This document shows positions 8,676-44,949 of a stretch of DNA of 58,183 bases, in pieces. Source of the stretch: a virus. Below the pieces are notes generated by a model. It saw nothing but the letters and a program-made list of their open reading frames with translations. It made no database searches and was not told where the DNA came from. The stretch spans positions 1 through 58,183 of the IMG/VR virus record IMGVR_UViG_3300033553_000795; one strand, written 5' to 3'. The translations under genes were made by a program, and so were the position numbers. Every line of letters starts with the position of its first letter. The first letter of the stretch is position 1.

Positions 8676-8876
8676 TTAGCCGGCTACAAACGGCATATCC
8701 TTGTCGGTCGGCAATTGGCTTTGCACTGCAACCAGTAACGCCGACAGGCCGCGCGGGTCAATCTGTACGATAGTTTTATCGGGAATCGCATCAACCAGAT
8801 CGCTGACCAGTTGCAGCGTATAGCGCGCGTGGTAAATGCATTGTTCTTGTTCTTCGCTGAGTTGGAAGTGGCTCAT
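8676..8876 (-). CDS. Small protein coupled to BRO-family gene
   Basis: 66 aa, mostly helical, with YTLQLVSDLVDAIPD and a GLSALLVAVQSQL segment. Its start overlaps the BRO stop (ATGA), so it is translationally coupled. The KilA-N gene at 20807-21607 is followed, with the same ATGA overlap, by a 73-aa protein with a similar pattern (LEAVSDL ... ALLLAFLL). The two look like equivalent members of C4-ant cassettes. Function unknown; an antirepressor partner is a guess. Confidence 0.68.
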   Translation of the reverse strand: MSHFQLSEEQEQCIYHARYTLQLVSDLVDAIPDKTIVQIDPRGLSALLVAVQSQLPTDKDMPFVAG

Positions 8877-9547
8877 ACTGTGCCGCCTTGGTTACGGATA
8901 GAGCGACGAACGATACCGGCATTGCGATAAAACCAGATCGATAGCGTATGCACTGTCCAGCCCTGATCGTGCAACTCAGTGATTTCCTTTTCTTCGGCCG
9001 CGGCAATCGGGCGCTGGGCACGAATAGCACGCTCTAATTGCGCGCGATTTTCCGCATGAATCAGTTTATGCCCATCAATCCTAAAATTTAGCTGCTTGTT
9101 TTGCTGGATCAGATGATCGGTATAAGCGTTGGCTTTTTCCTTGAAAACCTCATGCGCGTATTTTTGCGAGTCGATCAGTTGGCGTTGGGTGTCGAGCAGT
9201 TCTTGGGCGGTGGATTGCGGGGCGAGATAGCTGCCGGTTTTGTGGATAGCGGGGAGGACTTCTGAGGTTAGCCATTTTTTAACGGTTTTGGCTTCGGGTT
9301 TGGTGCTTCTGAGGACTGATGACCATAATCCAGACTCGTTGATGACATTGACGCCGCGATTTCCAAAACCGGCGATTTGCAGGTTTTGAACTTCATCTTC
9401 ATCTAGCTTTTTGGTCATTTCAAACGCGTCGCTGTATTCGAGTATTTCAGCAACTTCTTTGGCGATAAACCAAGATGCGCCTTGCTCGTCGGTAATGACA
9501 GTTAATTGATGGGATTGGAATTGGAAAGTTTGTAATGCTGTATTCAT
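8873..9547 (-). CDS. BRO-N domain antirepressor-like protein
   Basis: 224 aa. Residues about 1-100 match a BRO-N domain (WFIAKEVAEILEYSDA ... GLWSSVLRSTKPEAKTVKKW ... VLPAIHKTGSY). A charged coiled coil and a C-terminal helix-turn-helix-like end follow. Such proteins serve as phage antirepressors (Ant). I start it at ATG 9547, preceded by GGAG. The longer open frame back to 9814 only reads through the C4 RNA and its promoter. The C4 RNA upstream carries an element complementary to this ribosome-binding region, so translation is probably repressed by antisense pairing. Confidence 0.88.
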   Translation of the reverse strand: MNTALQTFQFQSHQLTVITDEQGASWFIAKEVAEILEYSDAFEMTKKLDEDEVQNLQIAGFGNRGVNVINESGLWSSVLRSTKPEAKTVKKWLTSEVLPAIHKTGSYLAPQSTAQELLDTQRQLIDSQKYAHEVFKEKANAYTDHLIQQNKQLNFRIDGHKLIHAENRAQLERAIRAQRPIAAAEEKEITELHDQGWTVHTLSIWFYRNAGIVRRSIRNQGGTV

Positions 9548-9569
9548 GTTGATCTCCGTTGAAATATTA

Positions 9570-9779
9570 GATAATCCGGCAACATGACGCCAATCATGGT
9601 GCCGGACTGGACAGGTTGGCGTACCAGGTTCAACGGACCCGGCCAGCCTTTTTAGGGGCTGCCTGCCCAGCCCGACATAATGAAGAGCTGGAGCGATGCA
9701 CACAAAAAAACCGCTTGAAGCGGCCATGTGCCGTTGAAATACCGAGACGCCAATCCCGTACGCTGGATTTTGCCAGCGC
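9570..9779 (-). ncRNA. C4-type antisense RNA controlling the BRO gene
   Basis: The leader between promoter and BRO start resembles C4 RNA of phages P1/P7 (GGGCTGGGCAGGCAGCCC hairpin, then a GCTGGCCGG block). It contains CCGTTGAA (minus strand of 9629-9636), the exact complement of TTCAACGG at 9563-9556, which runs into the GGAG ribosome-binding site. A second TTCAACGG copy upstream (9738-9731) matches the two-target layout of C4. ACGCCAA in the core can also pair with TTGGCGT copies on both sides. Boundaries are approximate. Confidence 0.75.
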
Positions 9780-9785
9780 ACAATT

Positions 9786-9814
9786 AGATTAGCCCTCGGG
9801 GTTGTTTTTGTCAA
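9786..9814 (-). promoter_or_regulatory. Sigma-70 promoter of the C4-BRO cassette
   Basis: TTGACA (9814-9809) and TAATCT (9791-9786) are separated by exactly 17 bp. The cassette at 20554 has the same TTGACA-N17-TAATCT promoter, including GGGC just before the -10 box. This is a strong constitutive-looking promoter. Confidence 0.8.
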
Positions 9815-9833
9815 ATTTCGAGATTACCCACTG

Positions 9834-9938
9834 CTACTCAAACAGCCAGTATAAAAAATAGCAAAACGCAATAAAGAGAGCTGCATAAGACATCAAAAAA
9901 ACAGATATGATGGTGTTGGTCTTGGGGAATAATGCCAT
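9834..9938 (-). CDS. 34-aa single-span membrane protein
   Basis: Read directly from the reverse strand: begins MALFPKTNTIISVF and is dominated by one hydrophobic helix (LMSYAALFIAFCYFLYWLF). A good AAGAGG ribosome-binding site precedes the ATG. It sits alone in a 165-bp gap between the Mor gene and the C4-BRO promoter. Function unknown; size and topology fit a small membrane modulator. Confidence 0.55.
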   Translation of the reverse strand: MALFPKTNTIISVFLMSYAALFIAFCYFLYWLFE

Positions 9939-9980
9939 GTTAATTACCTCTTAGTTATGCCTAAATCGGCGGTTAAAAAA

Positions 9981-10379
9981 TCAATCATCAATATCAAACA
10001 TATCCACCTGCCCGACATCCTCGTCCATACTATTGCAGATGGTCAGCACCTGGCGTTCGGTCAAACCGAACTTCCTGGCGACGTTAAACAGCGGCTCACG
10101 CTCTTTGCGCAACCGCCTGATCTCGGTATTGCGTAGCGCTCTAAAGGCCTTGGCGGCTTTGGGGATCTGGATAATCTCCCCGGCGAAGTTCTCGCAAAAG
10201 GCCGCGGCGGCTCTTGGACCCAGCACTTGACTCAGCTGATGCAGGGCATCAACCTGTTGCGGTACGCACACATGCCCGCCGCCGTAATGCTGCAGCAAGT
10301 CCATCGCGGTCTTGTCGCCGCAGTATTCCGCGATTTCCAGGAGTTTCGGGGGCAGCAAATGCCGGGGTAAGGGGTGCAT
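9981..10379 (-). CDS. mor: Mor/C-family transcriptional activator
   Basis: 132 aa, the usual Mor/C size. The N-terminal dimerisation region ends in GGGHVCVPQQ, which fits the conserved glycine-rich strand of Mor. The C-terminal helix-turn-helix is VARKFGLTERQVLTIC. Mu Mor and C activate the middle and late promoters by binding palindromes near -51 to -33. Only one family member is visible, so it may serve as the late activator here and is my candidate for binding the four TCCGAAG palindromes. It follows gemA by one base. Confidence 0.88.
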   Translation of the reverse strand: MHPLPRHLLPPKLLEIAEYCGDKTAMDLLQHYGGGHVCVPQQVDALHQLSQVLGPRAAAAFCENFAGEIIQIPKAAKAFRALRNTEIRRLRKEREPLFNVARKFGLTERQVLTICNSMDEDVGQVDMFDIDD

Positions 10380-10380
10380 A

Positions 10381-10860
10381 TTACTGAGCGACCGGGCCGT
10401 TAACGCGTTTTTGCCATTTCTTCAATGCCTCGATGACGCCGCTCGCTTGTGCCGTATCCAGCCATTGCAAGGCTTCGACGCCGGTCAAACGCTTGACGTA
10501 GTTAGCCAGACTGGCCTCGGACGGATCGCGCACAATGCCCTGGTTATGCATCTCCAGCCACAAGCTCCTGATTTTTTTGGATTGCCCGTCGTCGGCCAGC
10601 GCCCTGGATGACTTAGCTTGAGCCGGTTTAACCTTAAAGCCCAATCCCTTCATGACCTCGACCGCCTGGCACAGTTGGCCGATAGACATTGTCGAGGCCG
10701 AGTATTTGCCGTTTTTCAGGGTAGCGCCCTGCATCGGCAGCCAGATGCCGTAGTAAAACTCGTCATCCCAGCCCAGCTGATCTTTGCCGACTTGCAGCAG
10801 AGTATAGTAGCGTTTGCGGTTATCTGTCTCGGAGCGCGGTTGGTAATTTCTACGATTCAT
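10381..10860 (-). CDS. gemA: GemA regulatory protein (DUF1018)
   Basis: 159 aa. Family features: KRYYTLLQVGKDQLGWDDEFYY at the N-terminus, MSIGQLCQAVEVMKGLGFK in the middle and a C-terminal helical domain (VKRLTGVEALQWLDTAQASGVIEALKKW). In Mu, GemA modulates host gene expression and DNA topology in the early phase. The order gemA then mor is the normal Mu order. It overlaps the upstream 191-aa gene by 11 bp. Confidence 0.9.
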   Translation of the reverse strand: MNRRNYQPRSETDNRKRYYTLLQVGKDQLGWDDEFYYGIWLPMQGATLKNGKYSASTMSIGQLCQAVEVMKGLGFKVKPAQAKSSRALADDGQSKKIRSLWLEMHNQGIVRDPSEASLANYVKRLTGVEALQWLDTAQASGVIEALKKWQKRVNGPVAQ

Positions 10861-11425
10861 TGGATACTCTCTTAGCCTTGCCCTGCCAGCCTGACGGCGG
10901 GCCGGATTTTTGTTTAGGTTCTGCAGCTTTCTTGGCTACTGCTTTCGTGACAACCGCACCGACCGGTTGCATGCCCATCTGTGCGCCGGATTGCCCACGG
11001 TTGCGCTGCGCCTCGATCGCTTTGGCCTCAGTCGCAGCCAGTTGCTTTTCAACACGCCCGACCATGATCGACAGCAAATAACCGTTGGATTTCAGCGGCA
11101 GCACCAGCGCCGCGGGTTTATTGCTGACCAGCTTCATCATTTCGCCCTCCCAAGCCTGCATGGGCATTGCGTGGGTAATACCGCCCCGTACCACCGTGCC
11201 GCTTTTAATCATCGGCATCAGCTCTTGGGTCAGCGCCAGCCGCCGCGACCAGCGCAGCGACTGTATTTTCGGCTTAAACAGCTCCAGATAGCGGAGCAGA
11301 GCGCCGATCATGCTCGGCGGTATGCTTTGAATCAGCTCCGTCCACTCATTGCCTGCGGCCAGCTCCATGCCTTGGATAATGTCGATAGACGTGCCGCAGT
11401 AAGGGCAATCGAAACTGCAGCTCAT
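10850..11425 (-). CDS. Early protein with N-terminal CPYCG motif, unknown
   Basis: 191 aa. The first residues (CSFDCPYCGT) offer a possible zinc site, followed by a helical body with LLRYLELFKPKIQSLRWSRR and a basic, alanine- and lysine-rich tail (AKKAAEPKQKSGPP). The start overlaps the stop of the small DUF2786-like gene by 4 bp. Position and length fit an early gene preceding gemA in B3-like phages. I do not recognise a function; nucleic-acid binding is possible from the charge. Confidence 0.72.
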   Translation of the reverse strand: MSCSFDCPYCGTSIDIIQGMELAAGNEWTELIQSIPPSMIGALLRYLELFKPKIQSLRWSRRLALTQELMPMIKSGTVVRGGITHAMPMQAWEGEMMKLVSNKPAALVLPLKSNGYLLSIMVGRVEKQLAATEAKAIEAQRNRGQSGAQMGMQPVGAVVTKAVAKKAAEPKQKSGPPSGWQGKAKRVSNES

Positions 11426-11571
11426 CGTTGATAACCTAGACCTGTAGCGGGTGCGCTACCATCAAAGCCCGAGCCTGGCGGCAACGCCGTTGCTGCTTCG
11501 TTGGCGTTATTAATGGAGGCAAGTCTTAGGCATTTTTTAATTTTGCTGAGTATTTTGCTTGGCTCGCTCAT
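11422..11571 (-). CDS. Short DUF2786-like protein
   Basis: 49 aa, beginning MSEPSKILSKIKKCLRLAS. The segment ILSKIKKCLRLAS..NANEAATAL matches the start of DUF2786 domains, but the protein ends soon after, so it is shorter than most family members. It starts one base past the DUF3164 stop and overlaps the next gene (ATGA). It may be a trimmed but still translated gene. Function unknown. Confidence 0.6.
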   Translation of the reverse strand: MSEPSKILSKIKKCLRLASINNANEAATALPPGSGFDGSAPATGLGYQR

Positions 11572-11572
11572 A

Positions 11573-12190
11573 TCAAACCCCCGCAATATCCAGCGCCAAC
11601 TGGTCGAACTTGCCGTCGCTATTGCGCTCGTAAATCCGCAAATAGGCTTTAGTCCCCACCACTTGCATAGAGTCGCGCAACGCCTGCATAGCCAATTGCC
11701 ATTGCTCATCCTGTATATCGTATTGCAACAGCGTATAAATGCGCCCCAGGCTGATTTTGCCTTCCTGGTCGGTTTGAAAGGCATGCTCAACCAAGGCGAT
11801 AATCTCTACCCGGCTGCCCTCCGCCCAGCGATGAATACAGTCATCAACCAGTTTCTTTGCGGACTGCAAACGCTCATCGAATATTTTGATTTCCGCTTGG
11901 GACACCTTGATTTGATAACGTCCGTCGAATGAACACAGCGTGATATTGCCCTTGATGCCGCCCAGCTTGACCTTGTATTTCTCTGCTGACAATTCGGAAA
12001 ACGCCTGTATTTCGCCGAAGGTATCCGCTTTAAATCCGCCCAGCAGCTCGCGCAAATCGGCGACCTTGCCGATAATTTCCATCACCAACTCATTACGGAG
12101 CTTATCGATCTCGCTGACCAGTTGCAGCGGCACCAAGTGGCCTAGGCTGTTTTTTAAATAGCCTGTAGGTATGACTTCTTGTTGAGACAT
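11573..12190 (-). CDS. DUF3164 family early protein
   Basis: 205 aa. It begins MSQQEVIPTGYLKNSLGHLV (GYL.NS.GHLVP is typical of DUF3164) and continues with the ELLGGFKADTFGEIQAF and DGRYQIKVSQAEIKIFDERLQ segments characteristic of the family. Found in the early region of Mu- and B3-like phages between B and gemA; molecular function not known. Good conservation of length. Confidence 0.87.
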   Translation of the reverse strand: MSQQEVIPTGYLKNSLGHLVPLQLVSEIDKLRNELVMEIIGKVADLRELLGGFKADTFGEIQAFSELSAEKYKVKLGGIKGNITLCSFDGRYQIKVSQAEIKIFDERLQSAKKLVDDCIHRWAEGSRVEIIALVEHAFQTDQEGKISLGRIYTLLQYDIQDEQWQLAMQALRDSMQVVGTKAYLRIYERNSDGKFDQLALDIAGV

Positions 12191-12219
12191 TGTTTTTTTT
12201 CCTGTTGTTTAAAAAAAAT

Positions 12220-12290
12220 GTAGGTTGGGCAGCGTCTTTCTGCCCAACGTTTATTGGGTAATGTTGGGCAGAACAGTTTGCCCAACTTAC
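12220..12290. repeat. Palindromic REP/MITE-like element
   Basis: Ends GTAGGTTGGGC and GCCCAACTTAC are inverted, with further internal TTGGGCAG/CTGCCCAA copies. It lies in the 157-bp gap between the DUF3164 gene and the 115-aa gene. A related element with GTAGGTTGGG...CCCAACCTAC ends is at 18572-18647. These look like host-derived mobile palindromes. Confidence 0.7.
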
Positions 12291-12347
12291 ACCGTCACCA
12301 AAACCGCATCGACAGTGACACGGCGATCAGCACCACCGCCAACACCA

Positions 12348-12695
12348 TCAGCCCGTGCATTTGCGCGCCGCCCGGCGATAACCTTGCCCGGGCCAGCGGA
12401 TCACCTTGGAGGCGGCCGGTGCTCGCATCGGCTTATGCCAAACGACTTTGACCCCATCGACCACCGCCGCATAGGATTTGTACATCTTGCCGCCTTCCCA
12501 GCCTTGGCCGGTATAGGCCGATGGCAACAGCCGGGTCGCGGCATTAGGTTGGACATGGATCGCCGGTGTCCGTCCAGGCTGAGCATTGATGATAACCAGC
12601 CCCAAAAAATGCAGTTTGTTAACCACCCGGCTGATGTGTTCGACGGCTTCAGGGTCGTGATGGGTACCGATGAGTTCATAGCTTTTCATTGTCAT
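12348..12695 (-). CDS. Unknown early protein downstream of B
   Basis: 115 aa. It starts MTMKSYELIGTHHDPEAVEH. The middle has a VVNKLHFLGLVIINAQPGRTP segment, and the end is basic (WPGQGYRRAARKCTG). It follows the B ATPase gene by one base. A palindromic repeat lies just downstream. A 21-codon hydrophobic frame overlaps its 3' end, but I do not claim that as a gene. Function unknown. Confidence 0.62.
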   Translation of the reverse strand: MTMKSYELIGTHHDPEAVEHISRVVNKLHFLGLVIINAQPGRTPAIHVQPNAATRLLPSAYTGQGWEGGKMYKSYAAVVDGVKVVWHKPMRAPAASKVIRWPGQGYRRAARKCTG

Positions 12696-13850
12696 CTACG
12701 CCTCCAGAATTAAATCATTGGAAATCTTAGGAAACCCCAGCTGCGCCGCCTGATTCATCGCCGCCGTGACCAGATTATTGATCATCAACGGGTACATCAA
12801 ACTGACCGACTCGCGGGTTTTACCGGCCTTGGCGAAGATCAACCGGCCGCGGACGCCATCCAGTGCGTCTTTTTCAAACAGCTCATCAATGCCTTTGCCG
12901 ACCCGCTCGAATTTGAATTTCAGGTATTGATCCAGTTGCGCATCCAGCGGCGGCAGCTCGACCACTTCGCAGCGCTGCACCACTTCCCGCACCTCGGGCG
13001 AGCGCTCCGACAGCTTGATTTTCAGCTCGGTCTGACCGATCAGCACGATGCTCAGCAGCTTTTTAAAGCCGTCCTCCAGCTCGAAGAAGCGTTTTAAATG
13101 CTTGAGGGTGGCAATGCTCAGCCCGTGCGCCTCTTCGATGATCAAACAATGGTTAAACCCGGCGCGGCGGCTGTCTTTCAATATCCTGTGCAGTTGGCGG
13201 CTCTTGGCCTCCATGGACACGCGGGGTTTTTCCTGCGGGGCCAGGGTCAGGATAATACTGTCGGCAATCGCGCTGGCTTTCAGCGTTTTGCCGCGCACGT
13301 CGTTGTCTTCCATGCCCAATACATACGGCTCGATAATCAGGATCGGCGCGTCCTCGCGGGCGATGCGGTCGTGCAGGTCGCGGCGCAGCGTGGACTTGCC
13401 GGAACCGCTTTCGCCGATCACCGCAATAAAACCGCCGTGCATGGCCGTTGCCCACAGGTATTCCCGCACCCGGCGGATGTCCGGCGAGGTGAACACGTCC
13501 GCCGCCTCGTTGATGTCGTTGCTGAACGGGTCGCGGAAAAGACTAAAGTGCTGTCTCGCCGCTTGTGACAGCGCGGTTTTACGTAGTAACATATCGATAC
13601 CTTCTTGGTTGGGGGTGATGGTTGCAGGCGTTGAACCCGCAACCGCTGCAAACATTGCCGCGTCAACGGCAATATCTCGGACGACCAGTGCTTCGGTAAT
13701 CTTCCCCATCAGGGTGGTTTTATCCGGGCTGGTCGGCCATTTTTCATGGTTCAACAATTGCGCTACCAAAGCGGGCGACAAGCCGATGTCTCGGGCCAGT
13801 TGCGCCTGGCTGATGCCGTTGCTTAGCAGTCGATTTTTTAGGGCCAGCAT
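12696..13850 (-). CDS. B: Transposition target-DNA activator ATPase (MuB/B3 B-like)
   Basis: 384 aa. An N-terminal helix-turn-helix (GISQAQLARDIGLSPALVAQ, residues 13-32) is followed by an AAA+ domain with Walker A GESGSGKST near residue 146 and Walker B CLIIEEAH near residue 240. This is the layout of MuB-type proteins, which bind target DNA and stimulate the transposase. It lies two small steps downstream of A, the standard order. It also resembles the ExeA-like ATPase partner of some transposons, but the context fixes the role. Confidence 0.92.
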   Translation of the reverse strand: MLALKNRLLSNGISQAQLARDIGLSPALVAQLLNHEKWPTSPDKTTLMGKITEALVVRDIAVDAAMFAAVAGSTPATITPNQEGIDMLLRKTALSQAARQHFSLFRDPFSNDINEAADVFTSPDIRRVREYLWATAMHGGFIAVIGESGSGKSTLRRDLHDRIAREDAPILIIEPYVLGMEDNDVRGKTLKASAIADSIILTLAPQEKPRVSMEAKSRQLHRILKDSRRAGFNHCLIIEEAHGLSIATLKHLKRFFELEDGFKKLLSIVLIGQTELKIKLSERSPEVREVVQRCEVVELPPLDAQLDQYLKFKFERVGKGIDELFEKDALDGVRGRLIFAKAGKTRESVSLMYPLMINNLVTAAMNQAAQLGFPKISNDLILEA

Positions 13851-13852
13851 GA

Positions 13853-14065
13853 TTAGTGCCTGGCTGCCGATGCCATGGGCATGACATGCGCATCAAAACT
13901 ACGCCCGGCTAAAAAATCCTGCAATGCCGCCTCGATGACGCCACCCAGCACTTTTGCGGGGGTGTTATCGTCCGTTTCGCTGGGTCGGGCAAGACGCATT
14001 ACCTGCACGCTGATGCGTGATGTTGCGGTGTCTTCGTCTTCGATAATGATGATTGTTTTAGCCAT
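13853..14065 (-). CDS. Small protein between A and B, unknown
   Basis: 70 aa, beginning MAKTIIIIEDEDTATSRISV, with a two-strand then helix pattern and a C-terminal AALQDFLAGRSF segment. It fills the space between transposase and B ATPase, 2 bp from B, so it is clearly in the transposition operon. No domain recognised. Confidence 0.65.
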   Translation of the reverse strand: MAKTIIIIEDEDTATSRISVQVMRLARPSETDDNTPAKVLGGVIEAALQDFLAGRSFDAHVMPMASAARH

Positions 14066-14098
14066 TGGCGTTACCTCTGTTGGTTGGTGTTATTGTTA

Positions 14099-15862
14099 TT
14101 AAATCGCTCTTAATTGCGCGCGCCCGGTCGCGGCTCTACCCACTGCCAGATCCGCCAGCACCTGCTCCAAATCCTCCTCGGACGCCCCTTCGGGAAACCG
14201 CGACTGCACATCCGCCAGCAACTCCGGCCGGTAATCGCTACCCAAGCGCCCCAGCAGCCATTTAGCCGCCTGCACCGGGCTCAACTTCAACAGCTCAACA
14301 GTCGGGGCATTAACAGCCAAAGCCGTGCCGCGCTTGGGCATAAACGTTGCCAGCGCCTGTTTGGAGGCCAGCAGCGGGTCGATCTTGCCGTCAAACGGCA
14401 CATAATGTTTGTTGCCGCGCTTCTTCTCGGTTGCCGCCAGGGTGTCGGTACCGGCGGCCAGTTGATGGACGCGCTTGCGGTTGGTATCGGCTATGGTGTC
14501 CGGCTTGGCCTTATGTTCCTCGCCGATTACCGCCGCGCTCTCCCTGAAGCCCAGTGCGTTGGCTTTATCCTCATACAGCGCAATATGCTGCTCCTGGCCG
14601 TCTTCGCCCCAGATCACAGCCATCGCGGTATCGACCATAAACGGATGCCAATGCACGTACACGTCGCCTTTCACATACACGCCGGGCACATGATCGACTT
14701 TCCAGGTCCGGTTTTTAAACGAGATGGTTAAGTCGCCGCGTACCTGGCGTTTGATCGGCTCATCGGTTGCCAAACTCAGCAACACCTCGGCGCTGGGCGT
14801 AATGCGCAATTGCTCGGCAGTGATGGTCAGCCACACCGCAAAGCGGGTGCGTTTGGTCCGGCTGTGCTCTTTGGTGGCGTTCCACCACAGTTGATAGGTT
14901 TCCGCCAGCGCATTCAGCCCGTTAAAGTCGGTCGGGCGTTTTTTCATGAAGCGCAGCGCCTGCTCAAATGAGGTTTCCACCAAATGGTTGCCCTTTTCGA
15001 CGCTGCCCTTGGCCCGTGGATTGCGCCGCTTGTTGACGATCAGCTCAATGCCCATCCTAGTGCAAAACCGCCGCACCAGACCGCCGCTAGTCGCGCCCGG
15101 ATCGACCATCACGATCATCGGCGCACCGTGGAACGGATCGTTACCGGACTTTGGCGCCATCGCCCAGGCCAAAAACCGCACCGTATGCTCGCCTGATTCG
15201 GCATGCGGGTAATAGCGGTACCGGATTACCCCGCTGGCATGGTCGCTGACGACGTAACGAATCACCCGAAACTGCTCAATCGCTTTCAGATTTTGCGGCT
15301 TGTTTTTGTAATGCACCGCGTCGTCCAGCTCCACCAGTTCCGCGCCGCCGTCCGGCAGGTAATAAATCACGCACACCGAGCCGTCCACCTGCCACACATG
15401 ATTAGGGTGCAGCGATTGCAGATTGGTGTGCGGCGTCGCCTGGCGCAATTGCTCGGGGTGCAAGGTGTGGACCCGCAGGCCGTTGGCAATCGCCGAGTCC
15501 GACAGCGGCACCAGTTCCCCGGTCGCCGCGTCCAGCGTAGCGGCGGTAATTAGCCCGTTATCTCGTAGCACTTGAATCGCCTCCTTAACCGGCGTGATCT
15601 TGCGATTGTTCTTGCGGTAGCCTTCCAGGCAATAGGCCGACACCACATCGGCATCGGCGGCGCTCAGCGCCACTACCCCGGCATCGGAACGCCTTTTGCG
15701 CGGCTTGCCGACCGCGACTTTTTTTAAATGCCGCAACAAGGTGCTTCGGTTCTTGCCCAGCTCCTGGCAGGCGCGCCGGTAGATCGATTCCTTCTCGCCG
15801 TGGCCAGCCGCCGCCACGGCGTCGGCAATGCCCACCAGTTGTTGTATGTAGGCGGGATGCAT
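14099..15862 (-). CDS. A: DDE transposase (Mu A / B3 A-like)
   Basis: 587 aa. It should cut and join the phage ends for replicative transposition. After an N-terminal helix-turn-helix region (ELGKNRSTLLRHLKK near residue 35), the retroviral-integrase-like core shows WQVDGS (first Asp near 175), VMVDPGATSG (second Asp near 255) and RAKGSVEKGNH (Glu near 290). A Mu-transposase C-terminal beta-domain follows. Shorter than Mu A (663 aa), and in my judgement closer to B3/D3112-type enzymes. It is the only transposase in the window, so it would have to serve both elements. Confidence 0.94.
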   Translation of the reverse strand: MHPAYIQQLVGIADAVAAAGHGEKESIYRRACQELGKNRSTLLRHLKKVAVGKPRKRRSDAGVVALSAADADVVSAYCLEGYRKNNRKITPVKEAIQVLRDNGLITAATLDAATGELVPLSDSAIANGLRVHTLHPEQLRQATPHTNLQSLHPNHVWQVDGSVCVIYYLPDGGAELVELDDAVHYKNKPQNLKAIEQFRVIRYVVSDHASGVIRYRYYPHAESGEHTVRFLAWAMAPKSGNDPFHGAPMIVMVDPGATSGGLVRRFCTRMGIELIVNKRRNPRAKGSVEKGNHLVETSFEQALRFMKKRPTDFNGLNALAETYQLWWNATKEHSRTKRTRFAVWLTITAEQLRITPSAEVLLSLATDEPIKRQVRGDLTISFKNRTWKVDHVPGVYVKGDVYVHWHPFMVDTAMAVIWGEDGQEQHIALYEDKANALGFRESAAVIGEEHKAKPDTIADTNRKRVHQLAAGTDTLAATEKKRGNKHYVPFDGKIDPLLASKQALATFMPKRGTALAVNAPTVELLKLSPVQAAKWLLGRLGSDYRPELLADVQSRFPEGASEEDLEQVLADLAVGRAATGRAQLRAI

Positions 15863-15864
15863 GG

Positions 15865-16854
15865 TTATGCCTCGTCTTGCTGTTCTTGCGTCGCCATAAA
15901 CGCTTCAAACGCCTTAGCCTCGGCCCTGCCGGGCTCGTCTGCCGCCTGCTCGGCGTCAAGGATTGGCACAAAGCCCATATTGTCGGCGACGCCGTAAGCC
16001 GCAGTGATGATCAAGCCGACTGCCTGCCGCGCAGCCAGCTCGATATGCTTGGGCGGCTGGCCTTCGAATACCCGGTACAGCTTGGCGATCTCGCTGTTCA
16101 GCGTGGCGGTGACTTTTACCGTCAGTTCGCGGCTATATTCCTGCAAGCGCGAGAGCTGGAATTCGCCGGGCATCTGCACTTCGTCGATAGTTGTTCGCTT
16201 TTCCGCCTCCAATACCTGGATGCGGTTGGTTTTTTTCGTTAGGGATTCGTTGTATTCGCTGATGACCGTGTCTTTCGCAATCAAATCCCCGGTTAATAAT
16301 TCGACCTGTTTGGCTGAGGCTTCCTTTTCGCGGAAATGTTTGGCGGCCAGCTGCTGCATCAGGTCAAGTGCTTTATCCAGGTCTTCGGACTCAATCGCCT
16401 GAGCGATAATTAGGCGGTCGTCAGATGGCAGGGCTTTTAAGGCGTTATAGTCGCGTTGGCGAAAACCCAAGCGTTCTGCCTGCTCATACAGATTCGAGCC
16501 CAGCAGATTGTGGTTGCTCATCAGCTCCATAGTTCTTCTGTAAGATTTTCCAAGGAATGCGGTGCAGAACTCTGGAAAATCTGCGACCTGTCGCAAATTT
16601 CCAGCGTCGTCTTTGTAGGGCAATCCTTTGTATTGCTTGCTTTCACGGATATTTATTGCTGTTTCGGCGATCAATTTATCTGCGACGGTCGCAAAAAAGT
16701 CGGCAGCCTCAATTCGGCCCAACGATTTGAGTACATCAACGCTGGCTATTACCGCTGCATTAGCAATAGACATCTGATTGCCAGCCTCAACGAGTTGCTG
16801 CACATTGTTTTCCTGCGCCGGTGTTAGCGCTGTGCCAGTAGATTTATCGGTCAT
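15865..16854 (-). CDS. Early coiled-coil protein upstream of transposase
   Basis: 329 aa. It is mostly helical: an N-terminal region (ANAAVIASVDVLKSLGRIEAADFFATVADK), a central helical domain with GKSYRRTMELMSNHNLLG, a coiled coil around residues 170-230 and an acidic C-terminus. It sits 2 bp upstream of A. Large helical proteins at this place are usual in B3-like early operons, but I do not recognise a biochemical function. A DNA-binding or partition-like role is possible from the helical pattern. Confidence 0.72.
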   Translation of the reverse strand: MTDKSTGTALTPAQENNVQQLVEAGNQMSIANAAVIASVDVLKSLGRIEAADFFATVADKLIAETAINIRESKQYKGLPYKDDAGNLRQVADFPEFCTAFLGKSYRRTMELMSNHNLLGSNLYEQAERLGFRQRDYNALKALPSDDRLIIAQAIESEDLDKALDLMQQLAAKHFREKEASAKQVELLTGDLIAKDTVISEYNESLTKKTNRIQVLEAEKRTTIDEVQMPGEFQLSRLQEYSRELTVKVTATLNSEIAKLYRVFEGQPPKHIELAARQAVGLIITAAYGVADNMGFVPILDAEQAADEPGRAEAKAFEAFMATQEQQDEA

Positions 16855-16856
16855 GT

Positions 16857-17174
16857 TTATGTCCTGTTGATGCGTTGATTAAGTTCCGCCAGTTGTTTTT
16901 CGGCGGTGTTGAGTGAGTGCAGTATCTGCACGGCATGCCGCGCAAACCGCTCGCTCGGCCTGATTCGCCCGGTCTCCTGGATGCGCTCGGCAAACCCCGC
17001 CTGTTCCAGCGTGTTGACATAGCGGGTGATGTCGGTGCCGCTAAACCCAGTCGCCTCAATCAATTCCTTGGGGCTAAAGCCGTGCGCGAAGTTGCGCAGC
17101 AGTACATCCAGCACCGCCAGCACTTTGATCGCGCTTTTAATGTCCGAGCTTTTTTCCTTGATGGTGGTTTTCAT
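16857..17174 (-). CDS. IclR-type winged-helix regulator, early operon
   Basis: 105 aa from ATG 17174, which overlaps the stop of the 51-aa gene (ATGA). It begins MKTTIKEKSSDIKSAIKVL. Residues about 13-75 form an IclR-like winged helix (VLAVLDVLLRN... SPKELIEATGFSGTDITRYVNTLEQAGFAER). DNA-binding proteins of this type are common as the first genes of B3-like early operons. It probably regulates early transcription or assists replication. Confidence 0.78.
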   Translation of the reverse strand: MKTTIKEKSSDIKSAIKVLAVLDVLLRNFAHGFSPKELIEATGFSGTDITRYVNTLEQAGFAERIQETGRIRPSERFARHAVQILHSLNTAEKQLAELNQRINRT

Positions 17175-17326
17175 TTCGCCACCCGCTGCATATAGTGCTC
17201 GTGCCAGTTGACGTGGGGCCATTCCGCTCTGGGAGGCTGTTTAGGTAACGCCTGGATTTTGCGGCGAGCGGCTAACTGCTTGGCTCGGGCGGCTTCCAGA
17301 GGGGTTAGGTTGCTTGGTTGGGGCAT
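17171..17326 (-). CDS. First small gene of the early operon
   Basis: 51 aa, read directly from the reverse strand. It begins MPQPSNLTPLEAARAKQLAA and ends EWPHVNWHEHYMQRVAK. It has a good AGAGGAACG ribosome-binding site and a 4-bp overlap with the winged-helix gene. Basic N-terminal helix. No family recognised. Confidence 0.6.
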   Translation of the reverse strand: MPQPSNLTPLEAARAKQLAARRKIQALPKQPPRAEWPHVNWHEHYMQRVAK

Positions 17327-17421
17327 GATCGTTCCTCTTTTAGGTAGTTTTGCTTAGGTATTAATACGTACGTTGTTTTACGTAGGCAGTTGCGCGTATG
17401 GCGACATGCCTATACAGGCTG
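17327..17421 (-). promoter_or_regulatory. Likely early-operon promoter/operator region
   Basis: An AT-rich gap with ATACGTACGT and TTTTACGTAGG (17376-17386). The inverse CCTACGTAAAA occurs at 18657-18667, beyond the Rha/ner region. Facing copies of an 11-bp sequence on both sides suggest operators for an early regulator. No convincing -35/-10 pair was found by eye. Confidence 0.35.
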
Positions 17422-17655
17422 TTATTTTTGGTCGGGAAGATCCGGCTTATCAGCCGATTTAAAAATATATTTCATGGCGACGGCGTAAGTGTCTCCCCAG
17501 AATTTCGCCTGGTCTTCAGGACTGATCAGGCTGGGCATAAAAAAACTAACGCCGCCGGTAGGGTGACTCAGCATCGTAATCATGAGCCGATGAGCATCGC
17601 TGGGGTTTTGTTCGCAAAATGCGGCAAAAAAATCTTTAGCGTTTATGCGTTTCAT
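17422..17655 (-). CDS. Small protein downstream of Rha, unknown
   Basis: 77 aa from the ATG with AGGAG upstream, beginning MKRINAKDFFAAFCEQNPSD. The C-terminal part SPEDQAKFWGDTYAVAMKYIF is helical. It lies 10 bp after the Rha gene in the same direction and probably shares its transcript. No domain recognised. Confidence 0.6.
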   Translation of the reverse strand: MKRINAKDFFAAFCEQNPSDAHRLMITMLSHPTGGVSFFMPSLISPEDQAKFWGDTYAVAMKYIFKSADKPDLPDQK

Positions 17656-17665
17656 GGGGAGGCTC

Positions 17666-18202
17666 CTAGTTATGCAGCAAGCCAGCATCACGCATACGGC
17701 GCTTGTTGGCGGTGATGGTATCGGGCGAACGGTGTCCGGTTAGTGCGCAAGTTTGACGGCGCGACAGGCCGTTATCATGGGCTTGCTCAATGGTCAGCCA
17801 ATGTCGGCGCAGATAGCCCAGCGCATTGGCTCGGCGTTCAACGCGGGCTTTGAGGGCGGTTTCCATGCTGCGGAATGCGGTCAGGAAATCGATCTTCCAT
17901 TGCAAGGCTTGCTTGCCGGTGAAACCCATCGCCAACAGGGCAAAACCGTCATGGGTCATCTTGTACATGAGGCGCGGCTTTTTTTGCTCGTCAAGATATT
18001 TCGCGGGCGCAAAATTGCGCTCGCTAAACTCTTTGTCGGGGCATTCGGTAATCAGTTTATTGATGGTTTTGAGGACATCTTTATGTTGCTTTCGAAAATG
18101 CTCAGCTACCTTGAGCGAGGTGGTAAATGTATGACCGTCGACTATATCGACCAGCAGGGTTTCCGGGAACAGGTCGGTGTTTTTGGTTGGGGTGATTGGC
18201 AT
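17666..18202 (-). CDS. Rha-family phage regulatory protein
   Basis: 178 aa. The N-terminal domain matches Rha/pRha (TTSLKVAEHFRKQHKDVLKTI ... YKMTHDGFALLAMGFTGKQAL ... KIDFLTAFRSME, residues 28-115). A short C-terminal domain with SRRQTCALTGHRSPDTI may bind DNA. Rha proteins act in regulation of temperate phages and are often interchangeable with BRO and KilA-N modules. The ribosome-binding site GGAG is clear. It is a third ant-like gene in the window, but no C4-like leader was found ahead of it. Confidence 0.86.
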   Translation of the reverse strand: MPITPTKNTDLFPETLLVDIVDGHTFTTSLKVAEHFRKQHKDVLKTINKLITECPDKEFSERNFAPAKYLDEQKKPRLMYKMTHDGFALLAMGFTGKQALQWKIDFLTAFRSMETALKARVERRANALGYLRRHWLTIEQAHDNGLSRRQTCALTGHRSPDTITANKRRMRDAGLLHN

Positions 18203-18211
18203 GATGATCTC

Positions 18212-18304
18212 CTAAGCTGCTTGTTCGGGCTGCTTGTCGTAGCGGTTGGGCCATAGCTCTGCAAGCGACAGGCCGGTTTTAGATGCAATCAAATCAGCGG
18301 TGCG
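18212..18304 (-). pseudogene. ner: 3' remnant of a ner-like regulator gene
   Basis: The reverse-strand frame ending at 18212 reads RTADLIASKTGLSLAELWPN then RYDKQPEQAA. The LG(K)SLAELWPNRYD ending is typical of Ner-type DNA-binding proteins of Mu-like phages. Upstream in frame there is a stop after about 15 unrelated codons, and no helix-turn-helix half is found in the other frames. So only the last 30 or so codons survive. It lies just ahead of Rha. Confidence 0.6.
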
Positions 18305-18335
18305 TCTTGATGTGCTGCAATGCCAACAGGAGATT

Positions 18336-18533
18336 ATGACGGCGTTTTTTTATGCCGTAATAGCAACCCACCCAGCGCCCGGACAACTGAAGCAAAATTT
18401 TTCCGAAGGCAGCGAGCGAATAATAGCCAACAACATGACCAAGTCGCTTCCTGATGATTGGATTCGGCAAGCAATTGTCTACCGCGATATGCTAATGCAT
18501 GGGATTGATCACAAAATTGCTCAAAGCTCTTAA
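18336..18533 (+). CDS. Possible 65-aa protein, unknown
   Basis: Begins MTAFFYAVIATHPAPGQLKQ and contains SLPDDWIRQAIVYRDMLMHG, which looks like genuine protein rather than a shadow frame. AGGAG stands only 3 bp ahead of the ATG. It runs opposite to the early operon, next to the ner remnant. A 69-codon frame exists on the other strand, so the direction is uncertain. Confidence 0.35.
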   Translation: MTAFFYAVIATHPAPGQLKQNFSEGSERIIANNMTKSLPDDWIRQAIVYRDMLMHGIDHKIAQSS

Positions 18534-18571
18534 AATGGGGCATGGGTATCTCCTAAAGAAATATTGTAGTC

Positions 18572-18647
18572 GTAGGTTGGGCTAAGGTACGAAGCCCAAC
18601 ACATGGACGCTAAAAATGTTGGGCTTTCTTGCGTCAACCCAACCTAC
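18572..18647. repeat. Palindromic REP/MITE-like element
   Basis: GTAGGTTGGG at the left end and CCCAACCTAC at the right end are exact inverted repeats, with internal AAGCCCAAC/GTTGGGCTT. Related in ends to the element at 12220-12290. It sits in the gap between the divergent arms of element A. Confidence 0.72.
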
Positions 18648-18825
18648 GTATCCTTACCTACGTAAAAACGCGTACAGCCGCAAAAACGGCCTTTACGCCA
18701 ACTCTCACATCATTAAGCGCCAAAAATACCCGCCAGCGCGTTTATAAACGCCCGTAACAATCATTTAAGTGGGTTGCGCGGGTTGTATTTTGCTATAGTG
18801 TAAACACTCCCCAGTAAACACCCCT
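18643..18825 (+). other. Non-coding gap ahead of the late promoter of the right arm
   Basis: No gene seen. It contains CCTACGTA twice (18643-18650 and 18657-18664), 14 bp apart, possibly operators. It also has TTGTATTTTGCTA (18783-18795), a 13-mer found again at 21976-21988 ahead of the other protease gene. Confidence 0.45.
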
Positions 18826-18870
18826 TCCGAAGCACTTCGGATACCCGCCCACCTTGTGGCTGTCTATCAT
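18826..18870 (+). promoter_or_regulatory. Late promoter of element A right arm (P-I)
   Basis: Perfect palindrome TCCGAAG-CA-CTTCGGA at 18826-18841, then 23 bp, then -10 box TATCAT at 18865-18870. The expected transcription start falls on or next to ATG 18878, so the first gene would be read from a leaderless message. It has the same layout as the sites at 8605, 22109 and 44782. Confidence 0.78.
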
Positions 18871-18877
18871 GCAGCCC

Positions 18878-19753
18878 ATGAACAAAAAACAGCCTCTTAA
18901 ATCTAATCAGCTATCTGCCCATATCGGTATCGCCGCCTGTACGTTCGCGCTCGGCGCTTCCGTTGATGGTTCAATGCAATTATTGACCGATCCTGATTTT
19001 TTAAAGATTTATCCGAATTGGAAGTATATCCACAACGATACCGTAGCCCACCCGCGCCCGCTGCATCAAAGCTGGAACGGTACAGTGTTGCCGCATGATG
19101 ATCCGTGGTGGGATACCCATTTTACGCCTAACGGTTATGGTTGCCGATGCCGCATTGCCTCCGCCGATCCCGGCGAGTACAAAGGCCATCCAGCCCCGGA
19201 TGACGGCACTTACGAAAAAATAGACCGCAACGGCGAAGTGCATACCCTGCCCAAGGGCGTGGATTACGGCTTTAACTATGCGCCGGGCAAAAGCAATCTG
19301 GTCAAGGCGGTCGAGATTCAACAGCAAAAGCAGGAAGCGCTGCCGTGGCAATTGGCCCGCGCCAATGTCAAGGATCTGGTTAATGGCTCTATTTTTACAG
19401 ACTTCTTTGCCGGGAAACTGCGCGGGGAATTCCCCATTGCGGTGCTGCCTGCGGCCGATCAGGCCTTGTTAGGCTCGGAGACGGCGACGGTATTGCTGTC
19501 GCAGCATTCCTTGGCCGCGCACTTGGTCGCCCATCCAGAAATCGGCTTAACGGATTATTTGAACGTTCAGGAGATTCTGGAAACCGGCGAGGTTTACCGT
19601 CAAGGCGAGGAGCGTCTGGTTTATCTGACGATTGGTGACATTGTTTATCGGGCGGCCTTAAAGCGCACCGCAGATGGCAAGAAGAATTACTTTTTGACGC
19701 TGTTTAAGAACCAGGAAGGCAGCAGGCCAAAGCAAACGGACAGGATCAGATAA
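18878..19753 (+). CDS. Chimera: protease-I leader fused to MuF 3' half with PBECR2-like nuclease domain
   Basis: 291 aa, in frame across an insertion junction. Residues 1-35 are the N-terminus of a Mu-I-type protease (compare MNKKNPL... at 22161). From residue 37 it is MuF (DPDFLKIYPNWKYIHNDTV, then TPNGYGCRCRI). Residues about 165-290 resemble the PBECR2 nuclease domain found at MuF C-termini (QHSLAAHLVAHPEIGLTDYL, GEVYRQGEERLVYLTIGD, YRAALKRTADGKKNYFLTLF). The 5' part belongs to element A, the rest to element B. The late promoter of A now drives it. Whether the fusion is functional or an accident is open; the MuF N-terminal half is missing. The nuclease call is from pattern memory. Confidence 0.7.
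   Translation: MNKKQPLKSNQLSAHIGIAACTFALGASVDGSMQLLTDPDFLKIYPNWKYIHNDTVAHPRPLHQSWNGTVLPHDDPWWDTHFTPNGYGCRCRIASADPGEYKGHPAPDDGTYEKIDRNGEVHTLPKGVDYGFNYAPGKSNLVKAVEIQQQKQEALPWQLARANVKDLVNGSIFTDFFAGKLRGEFPIAVLPAADQALLGSETATVLLSQHSLAAHLVAHPEIGLTDYLNVQEILETGEVYRQGEERLVYLTIGDIVYRAALKRTADGKKNYFLTLFKNQEGSRPKQTDRIR
18980..18984. other. Left copy of TTATT target duplication
   Basis: TTATT at the point where protease-I coding sequence stops and MuF sequence begins. The matching copy is at 41526-41530. Joining the base after 18984 to 41531 restores an uninterrupted protease gene. Confidence 0.7.
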
Positions 19754-19887
19754 GGGCGCCGGTCGCGGGGCACGCGCTCCCCGCTAGACCTCATCAACCG
19801 CCAAAGCGGAAGGGCTCGTAAGCGATTTACGACGACCGGCCTTTTCAGTATAAACTAACCCCTAAAATTTACCACTCAGGAGCCGCG
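19754..19887 (+). other. Gap with hairpins between MuF chimera and 71-aa gene
   Basis: Contains a GCGGGG...CCCCGC hairpin, an inverted repeat TCGTAA-N5-TTACGA (19816-19832) and a TATAAACT box (19849-19856) ahead of the next gene. The last two could form a promoter with a different operator from the TCCGAAG type, but there is only this one example. Confidence 0.3.
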
Positions 19888-20103
19888 ATGCACAGTATTG
19901 AAACCCTAAAAAACCTGTTAACGTCAGGCGCAGGACTGCGCATTGACGCCAATATGGTCAGTATTAACAGCCTCAATGAATTGGCCGCTATTGCTCACAG
20001 CAACGGTGCCAGGCTCACCATCACCAACGCCAATCATGTTCTCAAGGATTCGCTGGAGCGGTTGGCCGTGGTCGGCGGGCAGTTTGTCAGCTTCGAGTTT
20101 TAA
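19888..20103 (+). CDS. Small protein between MuF and gpG of element B
   Basis: 71 aa, beginning MHSIETLKNLLTSGAGLRID. It alternates strand and helix (SINSLNELAAIAHSNGARLTI ... SLERLAVVGGQFVSFEF), giving two repeats of the form L..LA..A...G.....I. AGGAG is 6 bp upstream. Function unknown. Its place right behind a nuclease-like domain makes an immunity role thinkable, but nothing in the sequence proves it. Confidence 0.65.
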   Translation: MHSIETLKNLLTSGAGLRIDANMVSINSLNELAAIAHSNGARLTITNANHVLKDSLERLAVVGGQFVSFEF

Positions 20104-20550
20104 ATGATTGAAATAAGCGTCGACGACCGCGAGCTCCAGGCGGCCTTGCGCAACCTGCAGCAGGTAACAGGCAACCTGCGCCCTGCTCTGCAAAAAATAG
20201 GCGATAAGCTAAAAGACTCCACCCAGCAACGCTTTGGCAGCCAGACCGCTCCCGACGGTTCGGCGTGGCTGGGCAATGCCGAGTCCACGATTGCGCGTAA
20301 GGGCCGCAGCCAGCCGTTGACCGAGCACGGTACTCTGGGCGATACCATCGATTCTCAATTGCTGGGCAATGACGGCGTGCAGATCGGCAGCCCGATGAAA
20401 TACGCGGCGATGATGCAGTTCGGCGGCACCAAGGCCGAATTTCCGGCTCTATGGGGCGATATTCCAGCGCGGCCGTTTTTGGGCATTTCTGCCGATGACC
20501 GCAATGCCGTCATCGAGATTATTACCCGCCACCTGGAACAGGCTGTTTAA
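20104..20550 (+). CDS. G: Virion morphogenesis protein gpG of element B
   Basis: 148 aa. Paralogue of 1059-1508, sharing MMQFGGTKAEFP, LWGDIP.RPFLGIS and the VTGNLRPAL segment near the N-terminus. It should act in head completion or head-tail joining of element B. It starts directly after the stop of the 71-aa gene. The sequence has diverged well beyond a recent duplication, which supports two different phages. Confidence 0.9.
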   Translation: MIEISVDDRELQAALRNLQQVTGNLRPALQKIGDKLKDSTQQRFGSQTAPDGSAWLGNAESTIARKGRSQPLTEHGTLGDTIDSQLLGNDGVQIGSPMKYAAMMQFGGTKAEFPALWGDIPARPFLGISADDRNAVIEIITRHLEQAV

Positions 20551-20553
20551 GTT

Positions 20554-20582
20554 TTGACAAAGGCCGCGCAAAGGGCTAATCT
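20554..20582 (+). promoter_or_regulatory. Sigma-70 promoter of the C4-KilA-N cassette
   Basis: TTGACA (20554-20559), 17 bp, TAATCT (20577-20582), starting 4 bp after the gpG stop. Same boxes and spacing as the BRO cassette promoter at 9786-9814, including the GGGC before the -10 box. Confidence 0.8.
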
Positions 20583-20589
20583 GCTCGGG

Positions 20590-20790
20590 CACTGGCAAAG
20601 CCGGTGTCGGGACTCTAACCCCCGCAATAACAAAAGGTGCCGGCGCACACTATCATGCGCTTTTTTTATGTCTATCGAATTATGGTGGGCTGGCATGGGC
20701 CGCCTTCGGGCGGGCCGCTCCTTTTGGCGGTGGTTAGAACCCGTGTCAGTCCATCGCCCGATTCTAACTATAGGGTGATGGTCTTCTTAC
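20590..20790 (+). ncRNA. C4-type antisense RNA controlling the KilA-N gene
   Basis: C4-like leader with GGTGGGCTGG, a GGGCCGCCTTCGGGCGGGCC hairpin and a following single-stranded block. TCCTTTTG (20719-20726) is exactly complementary to CAAAAGGA (20792-20799), the ribosome-binding site of the KilA-N gene. A CAAAAGG copy also lies upstream (20631-20637), as in the BRO cassette. GGGTGAT at 20773-20779 can pair with ATCGCCC in the core using one wobble pair. The pairing elements differ from the BRO locus but keep complementarity. Confidence 0.75.
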
Positions 20791-20806
20791 TCAAAAGGAA
20801 ACTATC

Positions 20807-21607
20807 ATGACTACCGAATTATCCCTCAATATTTCCGGTATTGCTGTCGCCCAAGACAGTTCAGGCCGTTTCAATCTGACTGATCTGCATAAGGCTGCTG
20901 GTGGATTATCTCAGCACGAGCCTAATCGATGGCTTAGAAATCAACAAACTAAAGACCTGGTTGATGAATTGCGTAAGCCATTGATTTATACGGATACCCA
21001 AATTAGGGTATCCGACAAAATCAAGCACTTAGAACCTATCAGTATCGTCAAAAGCTTTTTCATGACTCAAGGCACCTTTGTCGTAGAAGAATTGGTCTAT
21101 GCTTATGCGATGTGGATCAGCCCAGCCTTTCATTTGCAGGTGATACGCTCCTATGCCGCCTTGGCTAAAGGCCTACAGCCCGCGCCGTCCGCCATGCCTG
21201 CCAGCATTGAAGCCCGCATGGAACGCATGGAAGGCTTTATGGAGACCATGGCCAGCAATATGTGCACCATGGCCGAAGTCTCGGTACAGCAGGCGCAAAA
21301 ACTGGATGTGACTGCCCGCTATATTGGCTTGCTGGAGGTCAACCAGAAAGGCACGGTTAAGATCACCCGCACCGTCGAAGCCGAAGCTCTGGCGCTGGCC
21401 GCGCAAGGGGTATCGATGACCGACATTGCCAAGGTGGTGCGGGTTTCGCGGGCTTCGGTCAGCTTGCTGGTGCGCGGCAAGTATCCCTGGTCATACTCTC
21501 AGGCCGCCTTGCCGCCCGCCTCGGTGCAGGACGTGGCGGACAGCATGGTTGCCGCCGAACGTGACCTATTGTTGGCCAGGCTGGCTAAACTGGACGGTGC
21601 CCAATGA
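20807..21607 (+). CDS. KilA-N domain antirepressor-like protein
   Basis: 266 aa. Residues about 15-115 match KilA-N (GRFNLTDLHKAAGG ... EPNRWLRNQQTKDLVDEL ... VVEELVYAYAMWISPAFHLQVIRSY). A coiled coil and a C-terminal helix-turn-helix (GVSMTDIAKVVRVSRASVSLL) follow. DNA-binding phage regulators of this kind often act as antirepressors. Start ATG has AAAGGA upstream, the target of the C4 antisense element. It lies between gpG and the protease, where Mu-like phages normally have no regulator, so the cassette looks like a moron. Confidence 0.9.
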   Translation: MTTELSLNISGIAVAQDSSGRFNLTDLHKAAGGLSQHEPNRWLRNQQTKDLVDELRKPLIYTDTQIRVSDKIKHLEPISIVKSFFMTQGTFVVEELVYAYAMWISPAFHLQVIRSYAALAKGLQPAPSAMPASIEARMERMEGFMETMASNMCTMAEVSVQQAQKLDVTARYIGLLEVNQKGTVKITRTVEAEALALAAQGVSMTDIAKVVRVSRASVSLLVRGKYPWSYSQAALPPASVQDVADSMVAAERDLLLARLAKLDGAQ

Positions 21608-21825
21608 GCGCAACACTGGACGCACTGGATCGCATTGACCATATCACCGCCTGCCTGGAAGCGGTCAGCGATCTGATGATTCCGGCCAGCGACTTGCATG
21701 CGGTAGACCGCGGAAAGCAGGCCTTGCTGCTGGCGTTCCTGCTGACCGAATACCGCATTGCCTCGGATAATTTAGGGCAGGCGCTTAAACCGGGCAAGGT
21801 CAATGTATTACATTCTGCCGCTTAG
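21604..21825 (+). CDS. Small protein coupled to KilA-N gene
   Basis: 73 aa; start overlaps the KilA-N stop (ATGA). Helical, with ITACLEAVSDLMIPASDL and QALLLAFLLTEYRI. It resembles in layout the 66-aa gene coupled to the BRO gene at 8676-8876. A hairpin terminator follows 57 bp downstream. Function unknown. Confidence 0.68.
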   Translation: MSATLDALDRIDHITACLEAVSDLMIPASDLHAVDRGKQALLLAFLLTEYRIASDNLGQALKPGKVNVLHSAA

Positions 21826-44832: not shown

Positions 44833-44949
44833 ATGTTTCAATTCACATTCGACCTCATCTGCCAAATGACTTGTCTTACGACAATCCATCGACAGATAGA
44901 GGTCGGCGGATTGCCTCGCGGTAAACGACGAGGTTACCTGAAAGGCTAA
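44833..44949 (+). CDS. Possible leaderless 38-codon ORF
   Basis: ATG 44833 lies 6 bp after the late -10 box, where transcription should start, so it could be translated without leader. It begins MFQFTFDLICQMTCLTTIHR and ends with a basic RGKRRGYLKG. No homology recognised, so it may be chance. Confidence 0.25.
   Translation: MFQFTFDLICQMTCLTTIHRQIEVGGLPRGKRRGYLKG

Follow-up and report, generated by a model that had tools for sequence, protein, structure and literature searches.

The stretch of viral DNA analysed here (IMG/VR record IMGVR_UViG_3300033553_000795, positions 1 to 58,183; the whole 58,183-nt stretch is referred to as the window) carries two cassettes, designated BRO and KilA-N after the Bro-N and KilA-N domains of their main products, each of which is very probably a C4-type antisense-RNA switch that silences an antirepressor-like gene in the lysogen. 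C4 immunity has been worked out in phages P1 and P7, and a related form is found in P4 and Gifsy-1. Both genes probably break viral dormancy, and the two switches probably work without cross-talk.

The BRO cassette occupies 9814 to 8676 on the minus strand, and the KilA-N cassette 20554 to 21825 on the plus strand. Both follow a common plan: a promoter, a terminated leader of ~75 nt and a C4-like RNA precede the Bro-N or KilA-N gene, whose end overlaps a small gene by ATGA. The sites within each cassette are ordered promoter, terminated leader with the target copies a1 and b1, C4 RNA (with the antisense segments a' and b'), and the targets a2 and b2 at the ribosome-binding site:

9786..9814 (-): BRO cassette promoter TTGACA-N17-TAATCT, from the sequence
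9704..9779 (-): BRO isrK/c4-a1b1-like leader; RF01394 58.9 bits (gathering 50), RF03163 34 bits, sub-threshold
9704-9725 (-): terminal intrinsic terminator of the BRO leader, GGCCGCTTCAAGCGG-T7
9747..9753 (-): BRO a1 target copy TTGGCGT, within leader hairpin 2
9731..9738 (-): BRO b1 target copy TTCAACGG; single-stranded in the leader prediction
9595..9682 (-): BRO C4 antisense RNA; RF01695 53.5 bits
9629-9637 (-): BRO C4 b' segment TCCGTTGAA
9616-9622 (-): BRO C4 a' segment ACGCCAA
9587..9593 (-): BRO a2 target TTGGCGT
9555..9563 (-): BRO b2 target TTCAACGGA, overlapping the Shine-Dalgarno sequence of the BRO gene
8873..9547 (-): BRO (Bro-N) antirepressor-like gene; Pfam Bro-N 1.9e-18, PHROG anti-repressor Ant 1.7e-41
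8676..8876 (-): small gene; ATGA overlap with the BRO stop at 8873-8876; no family match
20554..20582 (+): KilA-N cassette promoter TTGACA-N17-TAATCT, from the sequence
20589..20667 (+): KilA-N isrK-like leader; RF01394 30 bits over the full model length, E-value 1e-4, below gathering
20643-20667 (+): terminal intrinsic terminator of the KilA-N leader, GCGC-loop-GCGC-T7
20614..20619 (+): KilA-N a1 target copy TCTAAC; unpaired for the most part in the leader prediction
20631..20637 (+): KilA-N b1 target copy CAAAAGG
20678..20761 (+): KilA-N C4 antisense RNA; RF01695 66.7 bits
20719-20726 (+): KilA-N C4 b' segment TCCTTTTG
20733-20739 (+): KilA-N C4 a' segment GTTAGAA
20762..20768 (+): KilA-N a2 target TTCTAAC
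20792..20799 (+): KilA-N b2 target CAAAAGGA, overlapping the Shine-Dalgarno sequence of the KilA-N gene
20807..21607 (+): KilA-N antirepressor-like gene; Pfam KilA-N 4.5e-20, PHROG transcriptional regulator 1.3e-40
21604..21825 (+): small gene; ATGA overlap with the KilA-N stop at 21604-21607; 47%-identity relative behind the KilA-N gene of locus L139

RNA and protein families

We searched both cassettes with the Rfam models for C4 (RF01695), c4-a1b1 (RF03163) and isrK (RF01394), whose gathering cut-offs are 45, 46.7 and 50 bits, respectively; as a control we used the P1 record AF234172, in which a1, b1, C4, a2 and b2 are annotated and whose annotated region is matched by the same models. The C4 model scores above gathering in both cassettes (BRO 53.5 bits, KilA-N 66.7 bits), and the bipartite pairing of a' and b' to a target at the ribosome-binding site that defines a C4 RNA extends over 7 + 9 nt in BRO and 7 + 8 nt in KilA-N. 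The isrK model is above its cut-off in the BRO leader (58.9 bits) and reaches 30 bits in the KilA-N leader; the annotated P1 itself, at 35.1 bits, is also below the cut-off. Neither leader reaches gathering with c4-a1b1 (BRO 34 bits, E-value 4.5e-7; KilA-N unlisted at E<=1), yet the a1 and b1 sequences are present in both cassettes. The Pfam domain scores are 67.3 bits for Bro-N (cut-off 25.6) and 71.9 bits for KilA-N (cut-off 23.8). A search of the genome contigs with the BRO protein found no relative, and Pfam and PHROG scans of the ATGA-coupled small genes of both cassettes gave no family match.

The initial annotation of this DNA had claimed for both cassettes a shared promoter, a C4-like folded leader, an ant-like gene and an ATGA-coupled small gene; all of these are borne out, with its element coordinates exact or within a few bases, and the Rfam covariance search it had named as a check, with the lack of a C4 fold as the refuting outcome, places both leaders above gathering. 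The antisense pairing it described is real for b at both gene starts, and it missed the second pairing, through a', which is the main specificity segment. The upstream second copy of the target that it reported is indeed found (9731-9738 and 20631-20637), as a kind of element already known from a1/b1 of P1 and from RF03163. We also considered that C4 might lie inside a coding frame fused to BRO (a 313-amino-acid open reading frame (ORF), 8873-9814) and set this aside, as a comparable long open frame is found in only 54 of the 129 loci with a start.

Pairing between antisense segments and targets

We computed the C4 and leader folds, the four-site complementarity, the coordinated change in relatives, and the module exchange between near-identical phages. 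In the BRO cassette b' TCCGTTGAA is complementary to b2 TTCAACGGA and to the b1 copy, and a' ACGCCAA to TTGGCGT, which occurs directly after C4 (a2) and again in the leader (a1). In the KilA-N cassette b' TCCTTTTG is complementary to b2 CAAAAGGA and to b1, and a' GTTAGAA to TTCTAAC (a2) and TCTAAC (a1). Among 5000 dinucleotide shuffles of the flanks of each cassette, none reached both downstream matches together, for either cassette; both upstream matches were reached by chance at a frequency of 0.0004 (BRO) and 0.007 (KilA-N), and all four matches together in 0/5000 shuffles. Taken by itself, the 8-nt b match carries less weight, since the Shine-Dalgarno sequence is part of b2 and non-cognate pairs also match over at least 8 nt in a few percent of cases. 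Predicted duplex energies, summed over a and b, are -24.1 kcal/mol for the cognate and -13.1 kcal/mol for the crossed combination in BRO, and -20.9 versus -13.6 kcal/mol in KilA-N. Ranking of b sites by duplex energy was only moderately discriminating, because the Shine-Dalgarno sequence is shared, and it was replaced by exact matches with permutations.

Covariation among relatives

The host corresponds to a Methylococcales or Methylomonas-like assembly (DnaE 79% identical to a Methylococcales metagenome-assembled genome and 74% to Methylomonas). C4 is found in 110 of the 237 genomes of the host's family, with up to five loci per genome, in line with published reports of many C4 RNAs in one genome (PMC5320573); the host's own genome has four. 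Its further loci, L002 (G000 C65) and L004 (G000 C3), have small genes behind C4 instead of Bro-N or KilA-N genes, and L004 lies near integrase and primase-like genes, as in a P4-type satellite.

For 133 non-identical C4 loci of the host family (139 with six viral loci added) we compared exact 6-mer complementarity in cognate and non-cognate combinations, with 1000 permutations. Cognate matches were found at the downstream a2 in 121/133 loci (non-cognate 4.4%), at the upstream a1 in 127/133 (19%), at b2 in 94/133 (11%) and at b1 in 80/133 (16%); for each site 0/1000 permutations were as high. In 117 of the 139 loci one a' core matches a1 as well as a2, versus 4.0% of the non-cognate combinations, and about 90 different a' segments occur among the 133 loci. 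In 19 locus pairs the downstream genes are at least 80% identical and the a' cores differ; 16 of these 19 pairs, which share members and are thus not independent, show complete matches on both sides, at a1 as well as at a2. The promoter pattern TTGAC-N16-18-TAnnnT is found upstream in 107/133 loci. Among 85 scanned downstream proteins, antirepressor-type domains comprise Bro-N (11), KilA-N (10), Rha (4), AntA (3), ORF6N (3) and P22_AR_N (1). One genome (L039) has twin C4 loci 10 kb apart, at 4620-4704 (-) and 15094-15178 (+), with a near-identical start of the downstream gene, different but internally matched a and b sites, and an int-alpA RNA and a transfer RNA between them.

Variants in near-identical phages

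The viral contigs L219, L220 and L221 (= L222) represent Mu-like phages whose BRO cassette is placed as in the window, between the Mor and endolysin genes; they are 98.5-99.6% identical over more than 10 kb and carry three C4 specificities. L219 and L221 are 99.4-99.6% identical on both sides of the module; their alignment breaks off where the Mor gene ends and resumes shortly ahead of the BRO start, and in this interval the module of L221 has been replaced by one of the KilA-N type (TCCTTTTGA with TTCAAAAGGA). Between L219 and L220, which are 98.5% identical over 13.3 kb, a' changes from ACGCCAA to AGACCAA, and a1 and a2 are both altered to fit. These alignments show that whole switches are exchanged between almost identical phages.

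Mechanism and alternatives

From this evidence we infer transcription, processing, translational repression, antirepressor activity and immunity, as follows. One promoter would yield one transcript, part of which probably ends at the terminator after ~75 nt to give an isrK-like RNA with a1 and b1; the read-through RNA would contain C4, which would be cut out (in P1, C4 is processed by RNase P). C4 would pair in trans, via a' and b', with a2 and b2, covering the Shine-Dalgarno sequence of the BRO or KilA-N gene, so that translation of this gene, and probably with it that of the coupled small gene, would be blocked. The a1/b1 copies would let C4 act on the leader too, as a decoy, a terminator aid or both. 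As the two switches have different a' and b' segments, neither should silence the other, and each would therefore represent a separate immunity type, like P1 against P7.

Two other modes of control have to be weighed against silencing by C4. In Gifsy-1 a short IsrK leader activates anrP translation in trans (PMC4825925), and if such activation dominated here, the C4 segment would be mainly a cis inhibitory structure. This would suit the above-gathering isrK match of the BRO leader and the a1 site, which is mostly unpaired in the predicted leaders (0.75 versus a leader mean of 0.45) and conserved in 127/133 loci. The largely unpaired state of a1 counts equally in favour of the C4 switch. However, the gene activated in Gifsy-1 is orf45, to which anrP is translationally coupled, whereas in the window the gene starts after C4 and, as with icd in P1, b2 lies at the ribosome-binding site of that gene; we therefore regard dominance of activation as rather unlikely, though not exclusive of silencing, since the same pairing can serve both. 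The T-run terminator signal found upstream of C4 in 128/133 loci, and the detection of P4 CI/seqA relatives by the same two Rfam models (PMC10111431), would fit control of the P4 type, in which C4 binding to a1/b1 of the growing transcript would cause termination, in the manner of CI RNA on seqA, and the translational block at b2 would be secondary. The overlap of b2 with the Shine-Dalgarno sequence and an a2-b2 geometry equal to that of P1, whose annotation assigns this site to the repression of icd-ant translation, make this a doubtful account of the primary control. IsrK-type activation by the leader and P4-type termination at a1/b1 can be compatible at once. That the complementarity merely reflects an anti-Shine-Dalgarno-like sequence in a structured leader together with shared ancestry, i.e. 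a C4 relic without target specificity, is highly improbable: CCTTT is common in b' loops, the ribosome-binding site is part of b2 and non-cognate b matches are frequent (11%), but a' pairs outside the Shine-Dalgarno sequence and covaries most strongly (121/133 versus 4.4%), the BRO b pairing is mostly outside the AGGAG-like core, and three-site changes are coordinated between phages 98.5% identical elsewhere.

Several observations nevertheless weigh against C4 switches controlling antirepressors. The Shine-Dalgarno sequence within b2 inflates the b matches, and the b pairing is less conserved than the a pairing; in L219 and L220 b2 matches over only 5 nt, and thus a carries more specificity there. 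In the Pfam scan the ANT/KilAC C-terminal domain (PF03374), present in P1 Ant1 and KilA, is absent from both window proteins, whose putative antirepressor role rests on their Bro-N and KilA-N domains and PHROG names. Finally, the region may be a decaying composite prophage, with cassettes that are possibly inactive.

Position in the prophage region

The relative G240 is a mirror image of the outer parts of the window: its early arm, from transposase to DNA methyltransferase, corresponds to the window from ~18.2 kb down to 1, and its divergent late arm to the window from ~41.7 kb, with the tape measure protein 70% identical over the matched part. The stretch of 18.85-41.4 kb, with a second head and contractile-tail gene set and the KilA-N cassette, is absent from G240; within the one prophage region, the BRO cassette is therefore that of the resident Mu-like phage, and the KilA-N cassette arrived as part of a nested segment of late genes from another Mu-like phage. 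Two separate complete prophages were ruled out, as G240 has the same two divergent arms, so that the minus arm and the plus part from ~41.7 kb form one phage type with 18.85-41.4 kb nested in it. A related KilA-N cassette is found at the equivalent spot in a different phage (L139). The covariation of each C4 element with its own target, proposed in the initial annotation, holds in the 133 host-family loci and in near-identical phages, and the putative C4 control of two genes is supported by covariation and folds, with the correction that the segments holding the two cassettes stem from different phages.

The first ORF of the nested segment (18854-41400), at 18854-19753, has an N-terminus resembling the head protease gene at 22149 and a C-terminal part that is that of an F-like head protein, a fusion that is likely a recombination joint. 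Between Mor and the BRO cassette lies a 34-amino-acid ORF with a hydrophobic stretch (9834-9938, -), possibly a small membrane peptide. The phage DNA terminates at a DNA adenine methyltransferase gene (window 1-759), 167 bp from the host dnaE (G000 C48:13224-13391), and L220, L221 and L222 likewise end at this gene. A segment of ~197 bp (window 44833-45029) is repeated twice further along the contig at 93% identity (L007 7212-7407 and 12601-12797).

Significance

Already known are C4 of P1/P7, c4-a1b1 in Rfam, CI/seqA of P4, IsrK of Gifsy-1 and the separation of a' specificities by a few bases. The phage hosts, Bro-N and KilA-N genes as direct targets with no icd, and the large natural compensatory data set are new; a search of the available literature collection found no paper joining C4 with Mu-like phages. 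With C4 in nearly half of the sampled host family, and near-identical phages differing mainly in the C4 module, these loci amount to a natural experiment on the origin, the spread and the continued separation of RNA-based immunity types, and the natural compensatory variants make the disputed role of upstream a1/b1 (decoy, activator or terminator aid) directly testable. We tentatively suggest, as a possibility that we do not favour strongly, that the a1/b1-C4-a2/b2 block serves as a portable locus of RNA immunity, exchanged whole and diversifying so fast that almost every element in the family is of a distinct type and several C4 prophages could share one cell without cross-talk, and that the terminated a1/b1 leader is a built-in anti-C4 decoy setting the induction threshold.

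Comparison with known systems

Like the isrK-orf45-anrP region of Salmonella Gifsy-1, the window cassettes combine a terminated isrK leader, a complementary structured segment and an antirepressor-like gene; orf45, a translated segment of Gifsy-1, has no evident counterpart in the window, where the gene starts after C4. With P4 CI RNA and its seqA/seqC, and with C4/isrK in the Bro zones of phage-inducible chromosomal islands (PMC10111431), they share an antisense RNA between upstream and downstream targets, and genes of the Bro network. In P4 the site corresponding to a1/b1 serves termination (PMC10111431), with transcription ended early within eta, and the window phages are not P4-like; some other collected C4 loci do look so, e.g. 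L039 with int-alpA.

From P1 the cassettes differ in that the ribosome-binding site at b2 is the Bro-N or KilA-N gene's own, where P1 has icd behind b2 and then ant; no icd-like gene lies between b2 and the ant-like gene, as 15-16 nt separate the beginning of b2 from the start codons of BRO and KilA-N. The window proteins also lack the ANT domain of P1 Ant and KilA, and, unlike in P1/P7, the cassettes are carried by Mu-like transposable phages of methanotrophs. The duplicated upstream target has been listed as 'c4-a1b1' (PMC2864571; Rfam RF03163), and PMC5320573 cites small a' changes, 4 nt between P1 and P7, as separating specificities. The spacings in P1, BRO and KilA-N, respectively, are 14/15/17 nt for a1-b1, 29/30/29 nt for a2-b2 and 18/16/15 nt for b2-start, in agreement within 1-3 nt, with b1-C4 (74/56/47) as the exception. 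The C4 fold, the order promoter-a1-b1-C4-a2-b2-gene, the site spacings and the bipartite a'/b' pairing are thus those of the immI region of P1/P7.

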